Shown here piece after piece: positions 43,119 through 56,400 of a stretch of 64,000 nucleotides of DNA (the stretch's first letter is position 1; the number at the start of each line of letters is the position of its first letter). The stretch covers positions 372,001 through 436,000 of the forward strand of contig NZ_CP147243.1 of NCBI RefSeq assembly GCF_037198285.1, written 5' to 3'. Under the pieces are notes generated by a model that was given only the letters and a program-made list of their open reading frames with translations, searched no databases and was not told where the DNA came from. The position numbers and the translations under genes were made by a program. The DNA comes from Haladaptatus sp. DJG-WS-42 (lineage in GTDB: Archaea > Halobacteriota > Halobacteria > Halobacteriales > Halococcaceae).

Positions 43119-43286
43119 CTACCCGAACTTCTCGAACGGCTGGTCACAGCCGTTGCAGTAGTGCATCGACCGGCAGAGCCCCGGCCCCTTCGGGTGGTCG
43201 CGCACCGTGTCGTCAGAGCCGCAGTACGGGCAAACGGCGGGGGACTCGTCCTCGGACGTCGTAACGCTCGGGTCGTTAAATCGCAT
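43119..43286 (-). CDS. Stand-alone PaaD-type zinc ribbon (55 aa)
   Basis: The frame from ATG 43286 has CPYCGSDDTVRDHPKGPGLC near 19-38 and YCNGCDQPFEKFG at the end, four cysteines forming a zinc ribbon. This matches the C-terminal ribbon that is fused to the DUF59 domain in bacterial PaaD, split off here as its own gene. It starts three bases after the paaD stop, closing the paaABCD oxygenase operon. Confidence 0.82.
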   Translation of the reverse strand: MRFNDPSVTTSEDESPAVCPYCGSDDTVRDHPKGPGLCRSMHYCNGCDQPFEKFG

Positions 43287-43289
43287 GGG

Positions 43290-43703
43290 TTAGATGGACA
43301 GCCCGAACTCGCGCAGGGCCTCCTTCCCCGGTTCGGTGACCATCTCGACCGTCCACGGCGGACTCCAGACGAGGTCGAGGTCCATGCTCTCGACGCCCTC
43401 CACGGCGGCGACAGCGTCTTCGATGTCCGTCGTGAGCATCTCGCGGGCCGGACACCCGGTGTAAGTGAGCGTCATCTTCACGTCAGCGTGGCCGTCTTCG
43501 ACGGTGACGCCGTAGATGAGCCCCAAGTCAACGATGCTGACCGGCATCTCCGGGTCTTCGATTGCGTAAAGGGTGTCCCAGACGCGGCGTTCGACACCCG
43601 TTGTGCCCTCGCCGGTTGCGGGCAGTCCCTCGCGTTCCGGACCGTGGACGTAGTCGGTGTGCGAACACGGGGTGGCAGTGTTTTCGGTTGGGTTACTTGA
43701 CAT
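43290..43703 (-). CDS. paaD: PaaD-like iron-sulfur assembly protein (DUF59/MIP18 family)
   Basis: The 137-residue product carries the DUF59 core: IEDPEMPVSIVDLGLIYGVTVED, then MTLTYTGCPAREMLTTDIEDAV with the conserved cysteine near 93, and DLVWSPPWTVEMVTEPGKEAL. In the phenylacetyl-CoA epoxidase operon PaaD is thought to help load or mature metal centres. The zinc ribbon usually fused at its C-terminus is a separate downstream gene. It overlaps paaC by 11 bases. Confidence 0.92.
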   Translation of the reverse strand: MSSNPTENTATPCSHTDYVHGPEREGLPATGEGTTGVERRVWDTLYAIEDPEMPVSIVDLGLIYGVTVEDGHADVKMTLTYTGCPAREMLTTDIEDAVAAVEGVESMDLDLVWSPPWTVEMVTEPGKEALREFGLSI

Positions 43704-44535
43704 CGTCAGGGTCCTTGAGCAGCTTCGTCGGGGTGCTCAGCCCGAGCGTACGGTAGGTGTGCGTGAAGTCCTCGTAGAGTGGCTCCCAGTCTGCGGTGTG
43801 GTCGCCGTGACGACCGGTTTCCGCGGGCAATTCCAGCAGGTCACTTTCTGCTTCCGGCACGGAGAGGCCGAGCGACGAGAGGAACGGCAAGGTGATTTCG
43901 AGCCACTGCGCGCGGAGGTCGGCGAGTGGTTCGGTGCGGATGCCGAGTTCCACGATGTCGGCTTCGTGTTCGCTTGGTTCGAACAGCGTGAGCGCGTAGG
44001 GGAACAGGCGGTCGAACGCCTGCTGGACCTTCTCGCGACCCGGTTCGTCGTCACAGAGACGTTCGAGCCAGTTCTGGCCGTGTTCTAGGTGGTAGCGTTC
44101 CTCCATCTGCACCTTCTCGACGCGGTCACGCAGCCGTGGGTACGCAGAGCCCTGAATCGATTCGAGGTGGAGTTTCTCGTAGGTGTCGAACAGATACCCA
44201 CGAAGGATGGAATCCGCCCAGTCGCCTTCGATAATCGGCAGCTCGACCAGCGTCGAGTGGCGGAAGTCGCCCGGAGGTCGCTCCCAGATGAGTTCCGGTT
44301 CTTCTACGCCAAAATCTTCTAAGAGGTCGTACCAGAGGCGGGCGTGGCCGTACTCGTCCTGTGCGATATTCGCAATCGCGAGGTCGGATTCGAGTGTCGG
44401 CGCGCGAACCTGCCACTCGGTGTAGCGCTCTGCGAGGACGAACTCGTCGTCAGCCATCCGGAAGATGACCTCGGAGACGGCCTGCTGCTGCGTGTCGTCT
44501 AACTCTGCCGGGCCGGGGAGTTCGGAGAGCGCCAT
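43693..44535 (-). CDS. paaC: Phenylacetyl-CoA epoxidase subunit PaaC
   Basis: Structural partner of PaaA in the multicomponent oxygenase that epoxidises phenylacetyl-CoA. The 280 residues follow the ferritin-like PaaC fold. Unlike E. coli PaaC, where the metal motifs are lost, both helices here keep carboxylate/histidine patterns: IAQDEYGHARLWYDLLED near 56 and MEERYHLEHGQNWLERL near 139. This suggests a retained di-iron site. One-base overlap with paaB. Confidence 0.93.
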   Translation of the reverse strand: MALSELPGPAELDDTQQQAVSEVIFRMADDEFVLAERYTEWQVRAPTLESDLAIANIAQDEYGHARLWYDLLEDFGVEEPELIWERPPGDFRHSTLVELPIIEGDWADSILRGYLFDTYEKLHLESIQGSAYPRLRDRVEKVQMEERYHLEHGQNWLERLCDDEPGREKVQQAFDRLFPYALTLFEPSEHEADIVELGIRTEPLADLRAQWLEITLPFLSSLGLSVPEAESDLLELPAETGRHGDHTADWEPLYEDFTHTYRTLGLSTPTKLLKDPDDVK

Positions 44536-44852
44536 TAGTGCTCCCTCCGCTGGCGTTCGGCTTCGATTTGCTCCTTCTCCGAATCCTCGATTTCCTTTGC
44601 GAAACTCGCGTCCGTGTTGAACGTCATCGCCCAGCGGTACAGCTTGTCCGTCGTGCCGCCAAAGGAGGCTTCCTCTGCGTCAACCTCACCGATTTCGTCT
44701 TTCGGGACGACCCACAGGCTGTGGGTCGGGCGACGGCGGGCGTGTTGGACCTGTGCGAACATGAGTGCCATGTCGCGGTCTGGCGCGTGGACGTTGCCAC
44801 AGTGGGTGTGGTAGCCGCCCTGCTTTTCCTGTCTGAAAACTTCCCAAATCAT
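44535..44852 (-). CDS. paaB: Phenylacetyl-CoA epoxidase subunit PaaB
   Basis: Small bridging subunit of the epoxidase (105 aa). MIWEVFRQEKQGGYHTHCGN near the start, then HAPDRDMALMFAQVQHARRR and SLWVVPKDEI, are the family landmarks; the charged tail (KEIEDSEKEQIEAERQRREH) is a local extension. ATG 44852 lies one base after the paaA stop. The longer open frame is a shadow of paaA. Confidence 0.93.
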   Translation of the reverse strand: MIWEVFRQEKQGGYHTHCGNVHAPDRDMALMFAQVQHARRRPTHSLWVVPKDEIGEVDAEEASFGGTTDKLYRWAMTFNTDASFAKEIEDSEKEQIEAERQRREH

Positions 44853-45869: not shown

Positions 45870-46526
45870 ATGATTGCCGAGTGCCTCGTCGTGGAGTTTC
45901 GCGTGACGGGGGACAACTGCCCACTCGCAGATGCCTCCCAAGAGGCCGGGACGACGGTCGTCGCCCGCCCGCCCCAACTCAGAGCAGACGGGAACGTCCT
46001 GCTCCGATTCAGCGCGCCAACCGACGACGTCGCCCCGATTCTCGACGCAGACGAGCGGGTGCGCTACCTCCACATGTCCCAGACGGAAGGCCGGTTCAAC
46101 TTTCGGTGTCTCGCAAAACAGCGGTGTGTCGTCCACGATCTGACGAACGCGGGCCTGCTCGTTGAGTCGCTCCAATACCACCGCGGAACCGAACGTCACA
46201 CCGGCGCGGTCGTCGGCCGTGACGTGCTCCAGGGCGTCCTCGATACGGTGGCTGCACGGAATGCGGAGGCCGGGGCAGACGCCGTTGGCGTCACATTAGA
46301 ACGCATCTACCCACTTGGCACAGACGACGAGACGACCGTTGCCCAGCAATGGGACATCACGCCTGCCCAAGAAGAAGCGCTCAGAACGGCCGTAGAGATG
46401 GGATATTTTGAAGTTCCCCGAAAAGTCGATGCGTCGGCGGTTGCGGCGGCGCTCGACATCAGTAAATCGTCGTTCTTAGAACGCTTACACCGCGGCGAGC
46501 GCGGCCTGTTCTCGCAGGTGTTTTAG
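45870..46526 (+). CDS. Bat-type helix-turn-helix regulator, likely controls paa genes
   Basis: The 218-residue product has an N-terminal sensory/beta domain (1-150) and the C-terminal HTH_10 (bacterio-opsin activator) domain: WDITPAQEEALRTAVEMGYF at about 163-182 and VDASAVAAALDISKSSFLER near 188. It is divergent from paaA and convergent with paaI (four-base overlap), in the middle of the catabolic island, so it is the natural candidate regulator of both arms. The ligand and target sites are unknown. Confidence 0.88.
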   Translation: MIAECLVVEFRVTGDNCPLADASQEAGTTVVARPPQLRADGNVLLRFSAPTDDVAPILDADERVRYLHMSQTEGRFNFRCLAKQRCVVHDLTNAGLLVESLQYHRGTERHTGAVVGRDVLQGVLDTVAARNAEAGADAVGVTLERIYPLGTDDETTVAQQWDITPAQEEALRTAVEMGYFEVPRKVDASAVAAALDISKSSFLERLHRGERGLFSQVF

Positions 46527-46906
46527 CCCGTTTTGTACACGCCACGAACGCTCGCGACTTCGTTTTCGCTTTCGTCCGTAACCATGACGTCTACCACGCC
46601 GACAGAGGAGCCACAGCGCACCACGTTGGCTTCGGCGTAGAGGTCGCCGGTTCCGGCTTTCAGGTAGTCGATGCGCATGTCGATGGTCGGGACGGGTTGG
46701 TCGACGAGCGAGACAAGCGCCGCGCCGCCAACCGTGTCTGCGAGCGTGAACGCCACGCCGCCGTGAGCCATAAGTTTGTCAGAATTCCACGAGAGTTCCT
46801 GGCGCATCTCGATGTGGCCTTCGGCGTGGCCGTCTTCGGCAGCGGTAACCTCGACGCCGAGAAAATCAGCAAACGGCATCCCTTCGAAGAAGGCTTCTAC
46901 GTCCAT
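46523..46906 (-). CDS. paaI: PaaI-type acyl-CoA thioesterase
   Basis: Hotdog-fold thioesterase (127 aa) that hydrolyses stalled (hydroxy)phenylacetyl-CoA and frees CoA. FLGVEVTAAEDGHAEGHIEM near 17, the active-site region LMAHGGVAFTLADTVGGAAL near 46, and TIDMRIDYLKAG near 73 are diagnostic. I used ATG 46906; the upstream frame is a shadow. Last gene of the minus-strand catabolic arm. Confidence 0.9.
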   Translation of the reverse strand: MDVEAFFEGMPFADFLGVEVTAAEDGHAEGHIEMRQELSWNSDKLMAHGGVAFTLADTVGGAALVSLVDQPVPTIDMRIDYLKAGTGDLYAEANVVRCGSSVGVVDVMVTDESENEVASVRGVYKTG

Positions 46907-46931
46907 GTCGCGGGAGACGCTCGCGGGGTGG

Positions 46932-48641: not shown

Positions 48642-49085
48642 TCAGTCAGCAGGTTGGTCTGGGATGGCCCCGACCTGGCGCATCAGGCCGAGCATGTCCC
48701 ACTGCGGGAACCCCTCGACGATTTTGCCGTTTTTGATGCGGTGTTCGACGATGCCTTCGATGCTCACGGACTTACCCGTCGCCTCGAGCTCACCGAACGG
48801 CCCCGTCTGCGTGCCGGTCATGGTGAGTCGCGTCACGACGTGGTCGTCGTCTGCGAGCTGGTCGTGGATGGTCATTTTCACGTCCGGGAACGCCGTCGTG
48901 AATTTGGTGAGCAGCTTTCTGAACTCTCTGCGTCCGTGGAGTTCGCGTCCGCTTTCTGCGTCGTGGTGCGTGTACGTTTCTGCGAACAGGTCGTCGATTT
49001 TGTCGAAGTTCTTCTCGCTCAGTACCTCTTCGAAAAATCGGCGTGCAAGCTCTTTGTTCTCAACTGTTGGTGATTGGATTGCCAT
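48642..49085 (-). CDS. SnoaL/ester cyclase-like NTF2-fold protein (copy 1)
   Basis: A 147-residue NTF2-like protein: ARRFFEEVLSEKNFDKIDDL near 13, HGRREFRKLLTKFTTAFPDV near 50, GTQTGPF near 92 and IKNGKIVEGFPQWDMLGLMR near 118. It belongs to the SnoaL ester-cyclase group, whose members catalyse aldol ring closures or act as small-molecule binding or isomerising pockets. First of three tandem paralogues in the paa island; it is the most diverged of the three. Confidence 0.88.
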   Translation of the reverse strand: MAIQSPTVENKELARRFFEEVLSEKNFDKIDDLFAETYTHHDAESGRELHGRREFRKLLTKFTTAFPDVKMTIHDQLADDDHVVTRLTMTGTQTGPFGELEATGKSVSIEGIVEHRIKNGKIVEGFPQWDMLGLMRQVGAIPDQPAD

Positions 49086-49163
49086 GAGTGCTACCCAGTA
49101 GAGGTAGGGCGTCTGTGAGCAAGTCCCTTGCTTGAATGTCAGAAAAGTTAGCGTGATTCGGGT

Positions 49164-49601
49164 TTATTCGCCGGGTTTCGGTGCAACACCGAGTTGTTGC
49201 ATCAGCCCAAGCAGGTCTGAGTGGACCCACGACTCGGCAATCTTCCCATCTTCCATGCGGTACATGGTCATCCCCTCGATTTGGCCCTTCTTGTTCGTTG
49301 GCGGGATGCCGAGGAACTCGCCCTCGTGGGTGCCCTTATACGTGAAATTCGCACAGATTTTGTCACCCTCAGCGACGACGCGATTCAGGTCTGCGCTGAA
49401 GTTCGGGAAGCCCGCGAACACGTCTCCCCAGCTTTCCCGAAGTTCATCGAGACCCGTCGCGTCAGGGCGAGCGTCCGCGTAGTGGGTGACACAGTCGGCT
49501 GTATAATATTTCGAAATGTCATCCAGCTTCTTGTCGTTCATCACATCGACAGCCATGCTCAGAACGAGGTCTTTCATCTGTTTTACATCTTGGACGGCCA
49601 T
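49164..49601 (-). CDS. SnoaL/ester cyclase-like NTF2-fold protein (copy 2)
   Basis: The 145-residue product from MAVQDVKQMKDLVLS shares with copy 3 the segments NFTYKGTHEGEFLGIPPTNK and MEDGKIAESWVHSDLLGLMQ. The catalytic residues of SnoaL proper (His/Asp in the pocket) cannot be assigned with confidence. ATG 49601 was preferred to an upstream TTG. Separated by 62 bases from copy 3 and 78 from copy 1 on one strand. Confidence 0.88.
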   Translation of the reverse strand: MAVQDVKQMKDLVLSMAVDVMNDKKLDDISKYYTADCVTHYADARPDATGLDELRESWGDVFAGFPNFSADLNRVVAEGDKICANFTYKGTHEGEFLGIPPTNKKGQIEGMTMYRMEDGKIAESWVHSDLLGLMQQLGVAPKPGE

Positions 49602-49689
49602 TTTCAATCCCTCACTACTGTATCGTCGGAATAGGAGAAATCTGTATGTAGAATGGCTGGAAACGGGGAATTTCCGGGAAATAAGACGA

Positions 49690-50124
49690 CTATTCTTGGC
49701 TTGGGATGAGTTCGAGCTGTTGCATCAGGCCGAGGAAGTCGGCGCTCGCCCATGTCTCTGCGACTTTGTCTCCCTCCATCCGGTTGATGACGATGCCCGA
49801 GATTTTGGCCGTGCGGTTGGTCGCGGGCATTCCCATGAACTCGCCGTCGTGAGTTCCGTTGTAAGTGTAGCGCGTGACGACTTTGTCCCCCTCTACGATT
49901 TGGTCTTCGATGGTCGCTTTGAGGTCAGAGAATGACTCGTGAAACAGCTGTAAATACGCTTTGAACGCCTCACGTCCCTTGATTTCGTCCGGTAACGATG
50001 TCTCGTGGACGACGATGTCGTCGGTCATGAGTTCATCCAGGAGGTCGTAATTGCGCCCGTTGAACACTTCGTCGTTAAATCGAACGACGCGTGACTTCGC
50101 ATCTCGTGGTGATAGTTCTGCCAT
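49690..50124 (-). CDS. SnoaL/ester cyclase-like NTF2-fold protein (copy 3)
   Basis: A 144-residue protein with the NTF2-like pattern VVRFNDEVFNGRNYDLLDEL near 13, HETSLPDEIKGREAFKAYLQ, RYTYNGTHDGEFMGMPATNR and DKVAETWASADFLGLMQQLE. It is closest to copy 2. The AT-rich stretch upstream (CCATATATCAC near 50138) may hold a promoter. As for its paralogues, the function is not known; the genomic position suggests processing of phenylacetate-derived intermediates. Confidence 0.88.
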   Translation of the reverse strand: MAELSPRDAKSRVVRFNDEVFNGRNYDLLDELMTDDIVVHETSLPDEIKGREAFKAYLQLFHESFSDLKATIEDQIVEGDKVVTRYTYNGTHDGEFMGMPATNRTAKISGIVINRMEGDKVAETWASADFLGLMQQLELIPSQE

Positions 50125-50715: not shown

Positions 50716-51996
50716 TTACGCGCGGTGGTCAAACACGCGCTGTACCTTCCCGACCGTCGTCCGCTCGATAGTGTTCGGTTCGACGACGTGCAGTTCGGAG
50801 AGTTTCACGCCCAGTTTCGAGTTTAACTTCTTGCGAATCCGTTCTGCGAGGCCCGCGACGTCCGCCACGTCCGCGTGGTGCTCGACCGTCAACTCCATCG
50901 TGTCGAGCGCCCCCTCGCGGCGCAGGTCGATGCGGTAGTGAGGTGCGACTTCCGCAAATTCGAGCATGGCTTGCTCGATTTGACTCGGGTAGACGTTCAC
51001 CCCGCGGACGATGAGCAGGTCGTCGACGCGCCCGGTGACGTTGTCCATCCGGACGTGGGTGCGCCCGCAGTCGCACTCGTCGTAGTTGAGCGACGTGATG
51101 TCGCCTGTTCGGTACCGAAGCACGGGCATCGCGTCTTTCGCAAGCGTCGTGAGCACGAGTTCGCCCTCTTCGCCCTCGGACAGCACCTCGCCGGTGTCGG
51201 GGTCGATGACTTCGGGATAGAAGAAGTCCTCCCAGATGTGGAGGCCGTCTTGGGCTTCTGCACACTCGATGGAGACGCCCGGCCCGACGATTTCAGAGAG
51301 TCCGTACACGTCGATTGCGGTCACGTCAAGCGCCTCTTCGATTTCTTCGCGCATCGGGTCAGTAAAGGGTTCTGCGCCGATGATGACCGTCGAAAGCGGG
51401 AGGTCGTGGGGGTCTACGCCGCGCGCTTCGATGGCCTCTGCGAGGTAGAGACAGTACGACGGTGTACACGAGAGCACGGTGCTCCCCAAGTCTTCGAGGA
51501 AGTCGATTTGTCGGTCGGTGTTCCCGCCGCCGATGGGGATGACCGTCGCACCGAGTTCTTCTGCGCCGTCGTGAAAGCCGAGCCCGCCAGTGAACAGACC
51601 GTATCCGTAGGCGTTCTGGACGGTATCGGAAGCCGAAACGCCCGCGGCGACGAGCGACCGGGCCATCGCCTCGCGCCACACCGCGAGGTCTTCGCGGGTG
51701 TACGCCACGATTTTCGGCTTGCCTGTGGTTCCAGACGACGCGTGGAGTCGGACGATGTCCTCGCGCGGGACGGCAAACAGCTTGTCTGGGTAGTTGTCGC
51801 GCAGGTCTTCTTTCGTGGTGAACGGCAGCTTCTCGATGTCGTCAATGGACTCGATTGTATCCGGGGAGACGCCCGCCTCCTCGAACGTCTGTGCGTAGTA
51901 CGGGACGGCGGCCGCCTGCTGGACCATCCGTTTCAGTCGGTCGGTTTGCACCGTTCGAAGCTCTTCCCGAGTCGCCGCCTCCACATCGCCATGCAT
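50716..51996 (-). CDS. paaK: Phenylacetate-CoA ligase
   Basis: Activates phenylacetate to its CoA thioester, entering the pathway. The 426 residues have the AMP-binding P-loop LHASSGTTGKPKIVAYTRED near 84, YGLSEIVGPGVSIEC near 231, YRTGDITSLNYDECDCGRTH near 296 and the catalytic lysine region ERTTVGKVQRVF at the C-terminus. ATG 51996 fits the family start (REELRTVQTDRLKRMVQ). It heads the minus-strand arm and is divergent from the thiolase gene. Confidence 0.94.
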   Translation of the reverse strand: MHGDVEAATREELRTVQTDRLKRMVQQAAAVPYYAQTFEEAGVSPDTIESIDDIEKLPFTTKEDLRDNYPDKLFAVPREDIVRLHASSGTTGKPKIVAYTREDLAVWREAMARSLVAAGVSASDTVQNAYGYGLFTGGLGFHDGAEELGATVIPIGGGNTDRQIDFLEDLGSTVLSCTPSYCLYLAEAIEARGVDPHDLPLSTVIIGAEPFTDPMREEIEEALDVTAIDVYGLSEIVGPGVSIECAEAQDGLHIWEDFFYPEVIDPDTGEVLSEGEEGELVLTTLAKDAMPVLRYRTGDITSLNYDECDCGRTHVRMDNVTGRVDDLLIVRGVNVYPSQIEQAMLEFAEVAPHYRIDLRREGALDTMELTVEHHADVADVAGLAERIRKKLNSKLGVKLSELHVVEPNTIERTTVGKVQRVFDHRA

Positions 51997-52075
51997 ACGT
52001 TCTGAGGTTTGACACCACTCCACAAATCTATTCTGTCGGACAATCCCACACGTTTCTGCACGCCAAAGCCAACAG

Positions 52076-52085
52076 AGTATATTTT
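52076..52085 (+). promoter_or_regulatory. TATA box of the thiolase operon
   Basis: AGTATATTTT lies 22-31 bases before ATG 52107, so the beta-oxidation operon mRNA is probably leaderless. The 110-base spacer is shared with the divergent paaK. Confidence 0.6.
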
Positions 52086-52106
52086 CCAGCCCCCGAACGG
52101 GGCAGT

Positions 52107-53279
52107 ATGCGCGACGTGTATCTCGTGGGCGCGGCCCAGTCCGATTTCGGGTCGTTCCCAAACGAATCCTATCGGTCACTGTTCGAGCAGGCGTACACCG
52201 CGGCGCTTTCGAGCGTTCCCGACGGCATGGATGCAGCAGACATCGACGAAGCCGTCATCGGCACGCTCGGCGTTGGCGGCCGCCAGATTGGGCTCCCCGG
52301 CCCGGCGGTCACCGAACACGTCGGGCTGTCGGGGATTCCCTGCACCCGCGTCGAAAACGCGTGTGCGGCCTCCGGCTACGCCGTCCGACAGGCCGTCCAA
52401 GCCGTGAAAAGCGGGATGGCAGACGTGGTTCTCGCGGGCGGCGTTGAAATCATGACCGACCTCTCAGGTGACGCCACCCGCTGGTGGCTCGGCGTCTCTG
52501 GAGAGACGGAATGGGAACGCCTCTCTGGAACCACCTTCGCGGGTGTCTACGCCCAGATGGCGAGTTCGCACATGAAGAAATACGGGACGACCACAGAGCA
52601 CCTTTCGCACGTTGCTGTCAAGAACCACCGAAACGGGGCGAAAAATCCCCACGCACAACTCAGATTCGAATGTTCGCTCGAAGACGCGATGAACGCCCCA
52701 ACCGTCGCAGACCCGCTCACGCTGTATCACTGCTGTCCGACGACCGACGGCGCGGCCTGTGCGCTCATCGTGAGCGAAGACGTGGTAGACGAGTACACCG
52801 ACGACCCCATCCGCGTCGCGGGCGTGGGCGCTGGCTCCGACAAAATCGGCCTGTTCCAGCGCGACACGTACTCGGGCGTCCCGGCCTCACAGCGCGCCGC
52901 TGAGCAGGCCTACGAGATGGCGGAGGTCGGCCCCGAAGACATCGACTTCGCAGAAGTTCACGACTGTTTTTCGATTGCCGAACTCATGGCCTACGAAGAC
53001 CTCGGCTTTTGCGAACCGGGTGAGGCTGGCCCCTACGTCGCTTCGGGGGCGACCGACTACGGCGGCGACGTGGTCGTAAACGCTTCGGGTGGCCTCAAGA
53101 GCAAAGGCCACCCAATCGGCGCGACCGGCGCGGGACAGGTCGCAGAGGCGTTCACACAACTCTCTGAGAATGCAGGTGACCGACAGGTCGACCACGCCCG
53201 CTACGGGCTGACGCACAACGTCGGCGGGAGCGGTGGCGCGGCCGTCGTTCACATCTTCGAAAAGGAGGCGGGCCAATGA
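52107..53279 (+). CDS. SCP2-type thiolase (beta-ketoadipyl-CoA thiolase candidate)
   Basis: A 390-residue thiolase of the archaeal SCPx/SCP2 class. The nucleophile is in VENACAASGYAVRQAV (Cys near 86), and the other catalytic elements are AEVHDCFSIAEL and SKGHPIGATGAGQV, all intact. In phenylacetate degradation the last step is thiolysis of 3-oxoadipyl-CoA (PaaJ), which this enzyme may catalyse. It overlaps the HMGS-like/DUF35 gene by four bases, an arrangement known for archaeal thiolase complexes. Confidence 0.92.
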   Translation: MRDVYLVGAAQSDFGSFPNESYRSLFEQAYTAALSSVPDGMDAADIDEAVIGTLGVGGRQIGLPGPAVTEHVGLSGIPCTRVENACAASGYAVRQAVQAVKSGMADVVLAGGVEIMTDLSGDATRWWLGVSGETEWERLSGTTFAGVYAQMASSHMKKYGTTTEHLSHVAVKNHRNGAKNPHAQLRFECSLEDAMNAPTVADPLTLYHCCPTTDGAACALIVSEDVVDEYTDDPIRVAGVGAGSDKIGLFQRDTYSGVPASQRAAEQAYEMAEVGPEDIDFAEVHDCFSIAELMAYEDLGFCEPGEAGPYVASGATDYGGDVVVNASGGLKSKGHPIGATGAGQVAEAFTQLSENAGDRQVDHARYGLTHNVGGSGGAAVVHIFEKEAGQ

Positions 53280-54715: not shown

Positions 54716-55588
54716 ATGCACGTCACTGTACTTGGTGCAGGAACCATGGGTCACGGCATCGCGCAAGTCAGCGCGATGGCCGGTCACGACGTATTTCTTC
54801 GAGATATAGACGAGAGCGTACTGAGCGAAGCGCGCGGCGCAGTGGAGCGCAATCTCCAGGGCGGCGTCGAGCGCGAGAAGCTCACCGAAGCCGAGATGGA
54901 CGCTGCGCTCTCACGGCTCACGACGACCACCGACCTCCGAGAGGCCGCAGGCGAGGCTGACCTCATCGTGGAAGCCGTCCCCGAACGCCTCGACCTCAAA
55001 CAGCAAGTGTTCGCGGACGCCGAAGCCGTCGCCCCTGAAGACGCCATCCTCGCCACCAACACCTCCTCGCTTTCCGTGACGGAGATTGCGAGCGAACTCA
55101 GTTCGCCACACCGGGCCATCGGGCTTCACTTTTTCAACCCGGTTCACATCATGGCGCTCGTGGAAGTCGTCCTCGCAGAGCAGACCGACGACGCCACCGA
55201 AGCGGCGGCCGTCGAGTTCGTCGAGGGTATCGAAAAGACGCCAATCGTCGTCACGGATTCGCCCGGCTTCGCCTCCTCCCGACTCGGCGTCACCATCGGC
55301 GTCGAAGCCATGCGAATGTACGAAGAAGGCGTCGCAAGCGCGTCGGACATTGACGAGGCGATGACGCTCGGCTACAACCACCCGATGGGGCCACTCGAAC
55401 TCACCGACTTGGTGGGTCTCGATGTGCGTCTCGATATTCTCGAATATTTGCGAGAAGAGTTGGGCGAGCGGTTCCGCCCGCCACAGGTGCTCAAGCGCAA
55501 GGTTCGCGCCGGGCATCTCGGTCGGAAATCCGGGCAGGGCTTCTACGAATGGGACGAGGGTGAAAATGTGGGGGAAGTCGAGCGATGA
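54716..55588 (+). CDS. paaH: 3-hydroxyacyl-CoA dehydrogenase
   Basis: NAD-dependent oxidation of 3-hydroxyacyl-CoA (290 aa). The Rossmann motif VLGAGTMGHGIAQVSAMAG is near residue 5; NTSSLSVTEIAS near 115, catalytic GLHFFNPVHIMALVEVV near 138 and GYNHPMGPLELTDLVGLDV near 222 are all present. It overlaps the enoyl-CoA hydratase gene by four bases. In context it should oxidise 3-hydroxyadipyl-CoA, though generic beta-oxidation cannot be excluded. Confidence 0.92.
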   Translation: MHVTVLGAGTMGHGIAQVSAMAGHDVFLRDIDESVLSEARGAVERNLQGGVEREKLTEAEMDAALSRLTTTTDLREAAGEADLIVEAVPERLDLKQQVFADAEAVAPEDAILATNTSSLSVTEIASELSSPHRAIGLHFFNPVHIMALVEVVLAEQTDDATEAAAVEFVEGIEKTPIVVTDSPGFASSRLGVTIGVEAMRMYEEGVASASDIDEAMTLGYNHPMGPLELTDLVGLDVRLDILEYLREELGERFRPPQVLKRKVRAGHLGRKSGQGFYEWDEGENVGEVER

Positions 55589-56400
55589 GTGACCTCGAAT
55601 CTGTCGCCGCAGACTGCTCGCTCGTTCACCTCGACGTGGGAAGCGAACACGAGTACGTCGCCACCGTCACCATCGACCGTCCTGACGCGCGAAACGCACT
55701 CAACTCACAGGTTCGCACCGAGTTGAAACGCATCTTTGCTGCGCTCGAAGACGCAGCCGAAGTTCGCGTCGTCGTCCTCACGGGCGCAGACGAGGCGAAG
55801 GCGTTCGTCGCGGGCGCAGACGTGGGCGAACTGCGCGAGCGGACGACGCTCGAACAACGAACCGTCAGCCGACGCCCGCGCATCTACGAAGTGGTCGATG
55901 ACCTCCCGAAACCGGTCATCGCGCGCATCAACGGCCACGCGCTCGGCGGCGGCTGTGAACTCGCACAGGCCTGTGACGTGCGCATCGCCTACGAGAAGGC
56001 GAAATTGGGACAACCAGAAATCAACCTCGGCATCATCCCCGGCGGTGGCGGCACCCAGCGCTTGACGCGACTCGTGGGTGAGGGCCACGCCATGCGCCTG
56101 ATTCTCTCTGGAGAGCTGATTTCGGCTACGGAAGCACAGGATATCGGCCTCGTCGACGAGGTGTACGGCGACGACGGATTCGACGAACGCGTCTACGACC
56201 TCGCGGGAAAGATGGCCGACAAAAGTCCTGTCGCGCTCGAATTCGCCAAAGACGCGGTCAAGGCTGCCTCGCGCATGGAGTTAGAACAGGGCATCGAGTA
56301 CGAAGCAGAGCTGTTCACCCAGCTGTTTGCGACCGAGGACAAACAAGAGGGCATGGACGCCTTCTTCGAGAAGCGCGACCCCGAGTGGACGGGGAAATAA
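55585..56400 (+). CDS. paaF: Enoyl-CoA hydratase/isomerase (crotonase family)
   Basis: A 271-residue crotonase. VTIDRPDARNALNSQV near 29, the oxyanion-hole segment FVAGADVGEL near 73, INGHALGGGCELAQACDVRI near 112 (catalytic Glu) and GQPEINLGIIPGGGGTQRLTR near 138 (second Glu) show an active hydratase. As the only crotonase in the island it may serve as PaaF and possibly also as the PaaG isomerase. The stop abuts the stop of the convergent DUF2270 gene. Confidence 0.92.
   Translation: MSDLESVAADCSLVHLDVGSEHEYVATVTIDRPDARNALNSQVRTELKRIFAALEDAAEVRVVVLTGADEAKAFVAGADVGELRERTTLEQRTVSRRPRIYEVVDDLPKPVIARINGHALGGGCELAQACDVRIAYEKAKLGQPEINLGIIPGGGGTQRLTRLVGEGHAMRLILSGELISATEAQDIGLVDEVYGDDGFDERVYDLAGKMADKSPVALEFAKDAVKAASRMELEQGIEYEAELFTQLFATEDKQEGMDAFFEKRDPEWTGK

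Follow-up and report, generated by a model that had tools for sequence, protein, structure and literature searches.

The closest described relatives of the proteins studied here are the subunits of the phenylacetyl-CoA epoxidase of enteric bacteria. In the purified E. coli enzyme PaaE is required, and the six irons of the complex have been assigned to PaaA and PaaE only (PMC4498308; PMC9493321). Six residues of PaaA (E42, E72, H75, D126, E155 and H158) have been given as the iron ligands, PaaA crystals soaked with iron bound the metal where expected, and a lysine bridge in the same subunit has been suggested to participate in electron transfer (PMC4498308). Furthermore, substrate binding in E. 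coli occurs on PaaA only (PMC9493321). The PaaC proteins of E. coli and Klebsiella (PDB 1otk, 3pvr and 4iit) share sequence family, fold and operon position after paaB with the haloarchaeal PaaC described below, but E. coli PaaC has just two of the six ligands, D101 and H133.

We analysed a window of 64,000 nucleotides from the haloarchaeon Haladaptatus sp. DJG-WS-42 (contig NZ_CP147243.1, positions 372,001 to 436,000), in which paaA, paaB, paaC and paaD form one cluster on the minus strand (45783-43290), with start/stop overlaps at paaB/paaC and at paaC/paaD (Table 1). The paaC product scores 171.5 bits against the PaaC model TIGR02158, above the equivalog cut-off of 133.35 set for this NCBI model, and 81.3 bits against the PaaA model TIGR02156, far below its cut-off of 280; a mislabelled PaaA is ruled out by these scores. 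This protein and the neighbouring PaaA are the only two PF05138 proteins in the genome. Elsewhere in the window, three tandem NTF2/SnoaL-like genes (48642-50124, minus strand; 144-147 aa) adjoin an amidohydrolase, and in Haloferax (L005) an amidohydrolase is likewise close to the paa genes.

Table 1. Phenylacetate-related and neighbouring features of the window, in window coordinates.
Feature	Position	Strand	Description	Basis
55-aa zinc-ribbon protein, catalogued haloarchaeal 'PaaE'	43119..43286	-		NF041869 108.8 bits; TIGR02159 (PaaD) positions 96-143
paaD N-terminal part, FeS_assembly_P domain	43290..43703	-	start overlaps paaC end	NF041868 212.2 bits; positions 1-89 of 146-position PaaD model TIGR02159
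paaC	43693..44535	-	280 aa, ligand-bearing type; E31, E61, H64, D117, E146, H149	TIGR02158; ligand columns; AlphaFold2 model
paaB	44535..44852	-	bridging subunit; stop codon and paaC start codon have one base in common	NF041867 190.9 bits vs 150
paaA	44854..45783	-	309 aa, catalytic subunit; E40, E70, H73, D125, E154, H157	TIGR02156 289.2 bits vs cut-off 280; ligand columns
HTH_10 regulator, divergent, adjoining paaA	45870..46526	+		PF04967
Hotdog thioesterase, PaaI-like	46523..46909	-		TIGR00369; weak TIGR02286
paaK, phenylacetate-CoA ligase	50716..51993	-	start approximate, matched part only; residues 63-486 of ORF 50716-52179	NF041878 732.6 bits vs 700
3-Hydroxyacyl-CoA dehydrogenase, PaaH-like	54716..55588	+	lower pathway	NF006722 345 bits, under cut-off; TIGR02279 partial
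Enoyl-CoA hydratase, PaaF-like	55585..56400	+	lower pathway	NF004475 273 bits and NF007239 (PaaF) 270 bits, both under cut-off

The original prediction had placed two motifs in the paaC reading frame, DEYGHAR and EERYHLEHG, at positions like those of the metal-binding motifs of the adjacent PaaA. Both motifs are there (D60-R66 and E145-G153), and alignment puts them in the PaaA ligand columns. Between them they hold four ligands; the helix-1 glutamate and the helix-3 aspartate are also present, so that the set is complete at six. In the order listed in Table 1, the six PaaC residues align with those of the neighbouring PaaA and with the six iron ligands of E. coli PaaA. An alignment artefact is excluded, as four separate alignments give the same columns, in helices with hardly any gaps. 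The same columns in E. coli PaaC read C15, L45, Q48, D101, A130 and H133, in line with the expectation that the metal ligands of that subunit have been lost. The Haladaptatus protein, with all six present, is by its sequence a PaaC by descent that falls outside the metal-free type. The beta subunits of bacterial multicomponent monooxygenases are metal-free homologues paired with a diiron catalytic subunit. They represent an end state like that of E. coli PaaC, whereas the PaaC of the window still has its ligands.

An AlphaFold2 single-chain model of this PaaC, from an alignment in which plasmid-record rows were left out, has a pLDDT of 93.7 and a pTM of 0.91. The ligands sit on four helices (14-40, 48-73, 106-128 and 133-160), and the model combines a four-helix bundle with the E, ExxH, D/E, ExxH pattern of ferritin-like diiron proteins. 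The geometry of the site itself would follow that of PaaA, to which it is homologous. The best PDB match found by Foldseek was E. coli PaaC (3pvr_C; TM 0.81/0.91), and further matches included PaaA, Sulfolobus SSO1313, aldehyde-deformylating oxygenase, R2-like oxidase, a ribonucleotide reductase subunit and BoxB. SSO1313 (PDB 4mud), also archaeal, is a PaaA/PaaC-like protein of a single domain that shares this fold, at 24% identity.

PaaC sequences were taken from genomes of haloarchaea and from plasmid records, and were also collected by a genome-wide scan and by searching the phyla Deinococcota and Chloroflexota. The main set held 84 PaaC with EEHDEH or EEHEEH at the ligand columns and 90 without, frequencies that are not unbiased because sequences were picked by similarity and phylum, with Bacillota and most Actinomycetota outside the sample. 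Later additions from Halobacteria and Deinococcota all carried EEHDEH (16 of 16). The full set of six was found in all 39 PaaC from Halobacteria, all 40 from Deinococcota and 22 of the 33 from Chloroflexota, and in none of the 79 from Pseudomonadota, Bacteroidota, Gemmatimonadota, Actinomycetota, Acidobacteriota, Balneolota and Ignavibacteriota. A site specific to archaea is thus refuted, and the contrast drawn at the outset between archaeal and bacterial PaaC gives way to one that places Deinococcota and about two thirds of the sampled Chloroflexota beside the haloarchaea. Across the sampled sequences the split is nearly all-or-none. The sole intermediate is the PaaC of a Chloroflexota genome without PaaE (L187, G634), which reads AEHDKH and has two of the six ligands changed. 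Degenerate PaaC always retain H149 and mostly D117, have lost E31, E61 and E146, and usually have Q for H64. In three Deinococcota genomes paaC is present as two overlapping or adjacent frames (G448:C1:609897-610603, G457:C1:1053904-1054610 and G466:C14:23377-24161), which may reflect a frameshift, a pseudogene or an assembly error.

In a tree rooted on PaaA, for which the six ligand columns had been removed, degenerate (metal-free) PaaC formed one clade (SH-aLRT 100, and 100/100 on a thinned, careful tree) within a ligand-bearing background that comprises Halobacteria, Deinococcota and two groups of Chloroflexota. Two losses account for all PaaC, one on the branch to the degenerate clade and one in L187. 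The thinned, careful tree rejected a topology that unites ligand-bearing PaaC and L187 in a single clade (AU p 0.011), but on a fuller quick tree of 108 rows a clade of ligand-bearing PaaC narrowly escaped rejection (AU p 0.062). Under either topology the ancestral state is ligand-bearing by parsimony, because PaaA has the same six ligands. The proposal that this PaaC is the more ancestral form therefore gains support from the nesting of metal-free PaaC, as a single clade, among ligand-bearing ones. The ligand-free Chloroflexota PaaC group with Actinomycetota inside the degenerate clade, a placement that suggests transfer.

Conservation within the ligand-bearing group is consistent with a site under selection. 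With 35 effective sequences, conservation reaches 97% or more in 26 of 248 columns. Five of the six ligand columns belong to this group (p 4.9e-5), and the remaining one holds either D or E in every case. Ligand-bearing PaaC retain 15 of the 57 PaaA-invariant columns, all six ligands included (chance p 1.4e-4), and the near shell is retained at A28, Q59, D60, G63 and E145. In degenerate PaaC, Q59 and Y69 are altered together with the ligands, and so the site is retained or lost as a whole. Judged from these columns, the conservation of the ligands is purifying and not a matter of chance. Together with the full ligand set, this bears out the prediction of an apparent di-iron site in PaaC, and ligand-bearing PaaC very probably bind metal.

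The surroundings of the site differ from those of PaaA. In our PaaA set K68 is found in 100% of sequences and E49 in 93%; we take these two to be the lysine-bridge residues, from the title of PDB entry 4ii4. The PaaC of the window has I57 and Y38 at these positions, and V97 at that of PaaA F108. Thus, the six ligands and near-shell residues of PaaA (PDB 3pvr_A and 4iit_A) have equivalents in the same columns of this PaaC, but the lysine bridge and F108 do not. A subunit that copies the metal shell without the bridge or F108 most likely has another job, either in auxiliary redox chemistry or in structure.

We are fairly confident that the haloarchaeal PaaC is best explained as the ancestral form of this epoxidase subunit, with a complete carboxylate-bridged dimetal ligand set that serves as a non-epoxidising second site. 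PaaA and PaaC would descend from a metal-binding ancestor, whose site would persist in both subunits in Halobacteria, Deinococcota and some Chloroflexota; in PaaC it would have decayed once, on the branch leading to the PaaC of most other bacteria. The two subunits would pair as in E. coli, with phenylacetyl-CoA epoxidised by PaaA. PaaC would contribute another dinuclear metal centre. Having neither the lysine-bridge residues of PaaA nor F108, this centre would leave the substrate of PaaA unconverted, and it would most likely be an auxiliary redox or a structural metal site. Taken together, these two roles are likely, a judgement reached by elimination. As a guess, electrons would come from a general ferredoxin in place of a dedicated PaaE.

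That the site is purely structural is a credible possibility, although we would place it short of probable. One or two metals, not necessarily iron, would here stabilize the fold in hot or salty cells, and other lineages would have swapped the site for a hydrophobic core or a charged residue. The site is indeed found in halophiles and in many thermophiles among the Deinococcota, and the changes of E61 to L and H64 to Q in degenerate PaaC are core-like replacements. Furthermore, arginine occupies the position of the helix-1 glutamate (31) in 21 of the 90 degenerate PaaC, concentrated in early branches and mostly in Gemmatimonadota, Balneolota and Ignavibacteriota without PaaE (for example L019, L021, L027, L045 and L083), where it may stand in for the charge of the lost metal. 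However, the site is also kept by mesophilic Deinococcus and by Chloroflexota of varied habitats, and so are the near-shell residues Q59 and Y69, which it has in common with the redox site of PaaA. A redox-active PaaC centre is a possible but rather doubtful reading. The enzyme of Halobacteria, Deinococcota and some Chloroflexota would then work without PaaE and have two dimetal centres in each PaaA-PaaC pair. The PaaC centre would help to activate oxygen, pass on electrons or carry out a second oxidation, and the bacterial enzyme with one centre would descend functionally from this form.

It is improbable that the PaaC site handles electrons or oxygen as a relay in place of the PaaE reductase step, which would make ligand-bearing PaaC and PaaE alternatives. 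The distribution of PaaE first appears to favour such an exchange. No PaaE (TIGR02160) was found in the 58 ligand-bearing genomes (18 haloarchaeal, 18 Chloroflexota and 22 Deinococcota), where no match exceeds 112 bits (cut-off 420.8); in the genome of the window the best match is a ferredoxin-domain fragment of 50 bits. Full-length PaaE is present in nine of ten ligand-free Chloroflexota (376-473 bits), and the tenth has it as two fragments beside paaC (G729:C118:18922-19409). However, PaaE is also missing from 21 of 32 further ligand-free genomes, mostly of Gemmatimonadota, Balneolota and part of the Bacteroidota, which weakens a strict swap of PaaC ligands for PaaE. As these lineages branch early, ligand loss did not wait for PaaE, and the simplest order of events is loss of the ligands with PaaE afterwards. 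A dimetal site would, moreover, be unable to provide NADPH electrons without some reductase. A ligand-bearing PaaC goes with the absence of PaaE, but the rule is one-way only, and since few independent events underlie it we claim no causal link.

The haloarchaeal protein catalogued as 'PaaE' (NF041869) was considered as a reductase and rejected, its profile being the C-terminal third of PaaD. It and the adjoining PaaD fit complementary parts of the PaaD model (Table 1). Haloarchaeal PaaD thus looks split, the 55-aa part being its detached C-terminal zinc ribbon, and the reductase name given in NCBIfam looks wrong.

A doubly active oxygenase, as first proposed for this locus, is quite improbable. 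PaaA and PaaC would both epoxidise CoA-bound aromatics, perhaps of different kinds, and the complete ligand set, the near shell in common with PaaA and the homology of PaaC to active diiron oxygenases in the Foldseek search would all suit such an enzyme. The proposal is not supported, and against it stand the replacement of K68, E49 and F108 in this PaaC, the 42 of 57 PaaA-invariant columns that PaaC does not share, and the confinement of substrate to PaaA in E. coli (PMC9493321). Finally, a neutral relic, in which inherited residues bind nothing, is scarcely credible, as all six persist in three phyla, across sequences only 30-60% identical, and their columns rank with the best conserved in the family.

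In the open-access papers searched we found neither a report of a ligand-bearing PaaC nor a metal analysis of one. If our preferred explanation of an ancestral, non-epoxidising second site holds, the account given in reviews, which treats PaaC as structural and places the iron of the complex on PaaA and PaaE alone, would be incorrect or incomplete for three deep lineages. Present-day species would retain the condition that came before one of the two sister diiron subunits turned into a pseudo-metalloenzyme. With degeneration placed on one branch, and with L187 as an intermediate, the way in which a paired diiron enzyme tolerates the loss of a centre becomes testable. In addition, as no PaaE was found in the haloarchaeal and Deinococcota genomes with ligand-bearing PaaC, their epoxidase would draw on another electron donor.

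Related proteins occur in other settings. Haloarchaeal and Thermus plasmids carry a second PaaA/PaaC-like operon type (L007:2938-5231 and L009:4944-7347), which includes small PaaB- and PaaD-like genes. Its PaaC-like partner (L007:4464-5231 and L009:6568-7344) resembles the PaaC of the window in having five of the six ligands and in being paired with a full-ligand PaaA-like protein, but has lysine for the helix-1 glutamate (KEHDEH) and scores well under the PaaC cut-off. Proteobacterial paa clusters encode a third PaaA/PaaC-like protein, with EKHGEH at the ligand columns (L006:5342, L031, L033, L040, L051, L058, L064 and L080) or, in L037, EKNGEH. Lysine replaces the second glutamate here, and the aspartate of helix 3 has given way to glycine.
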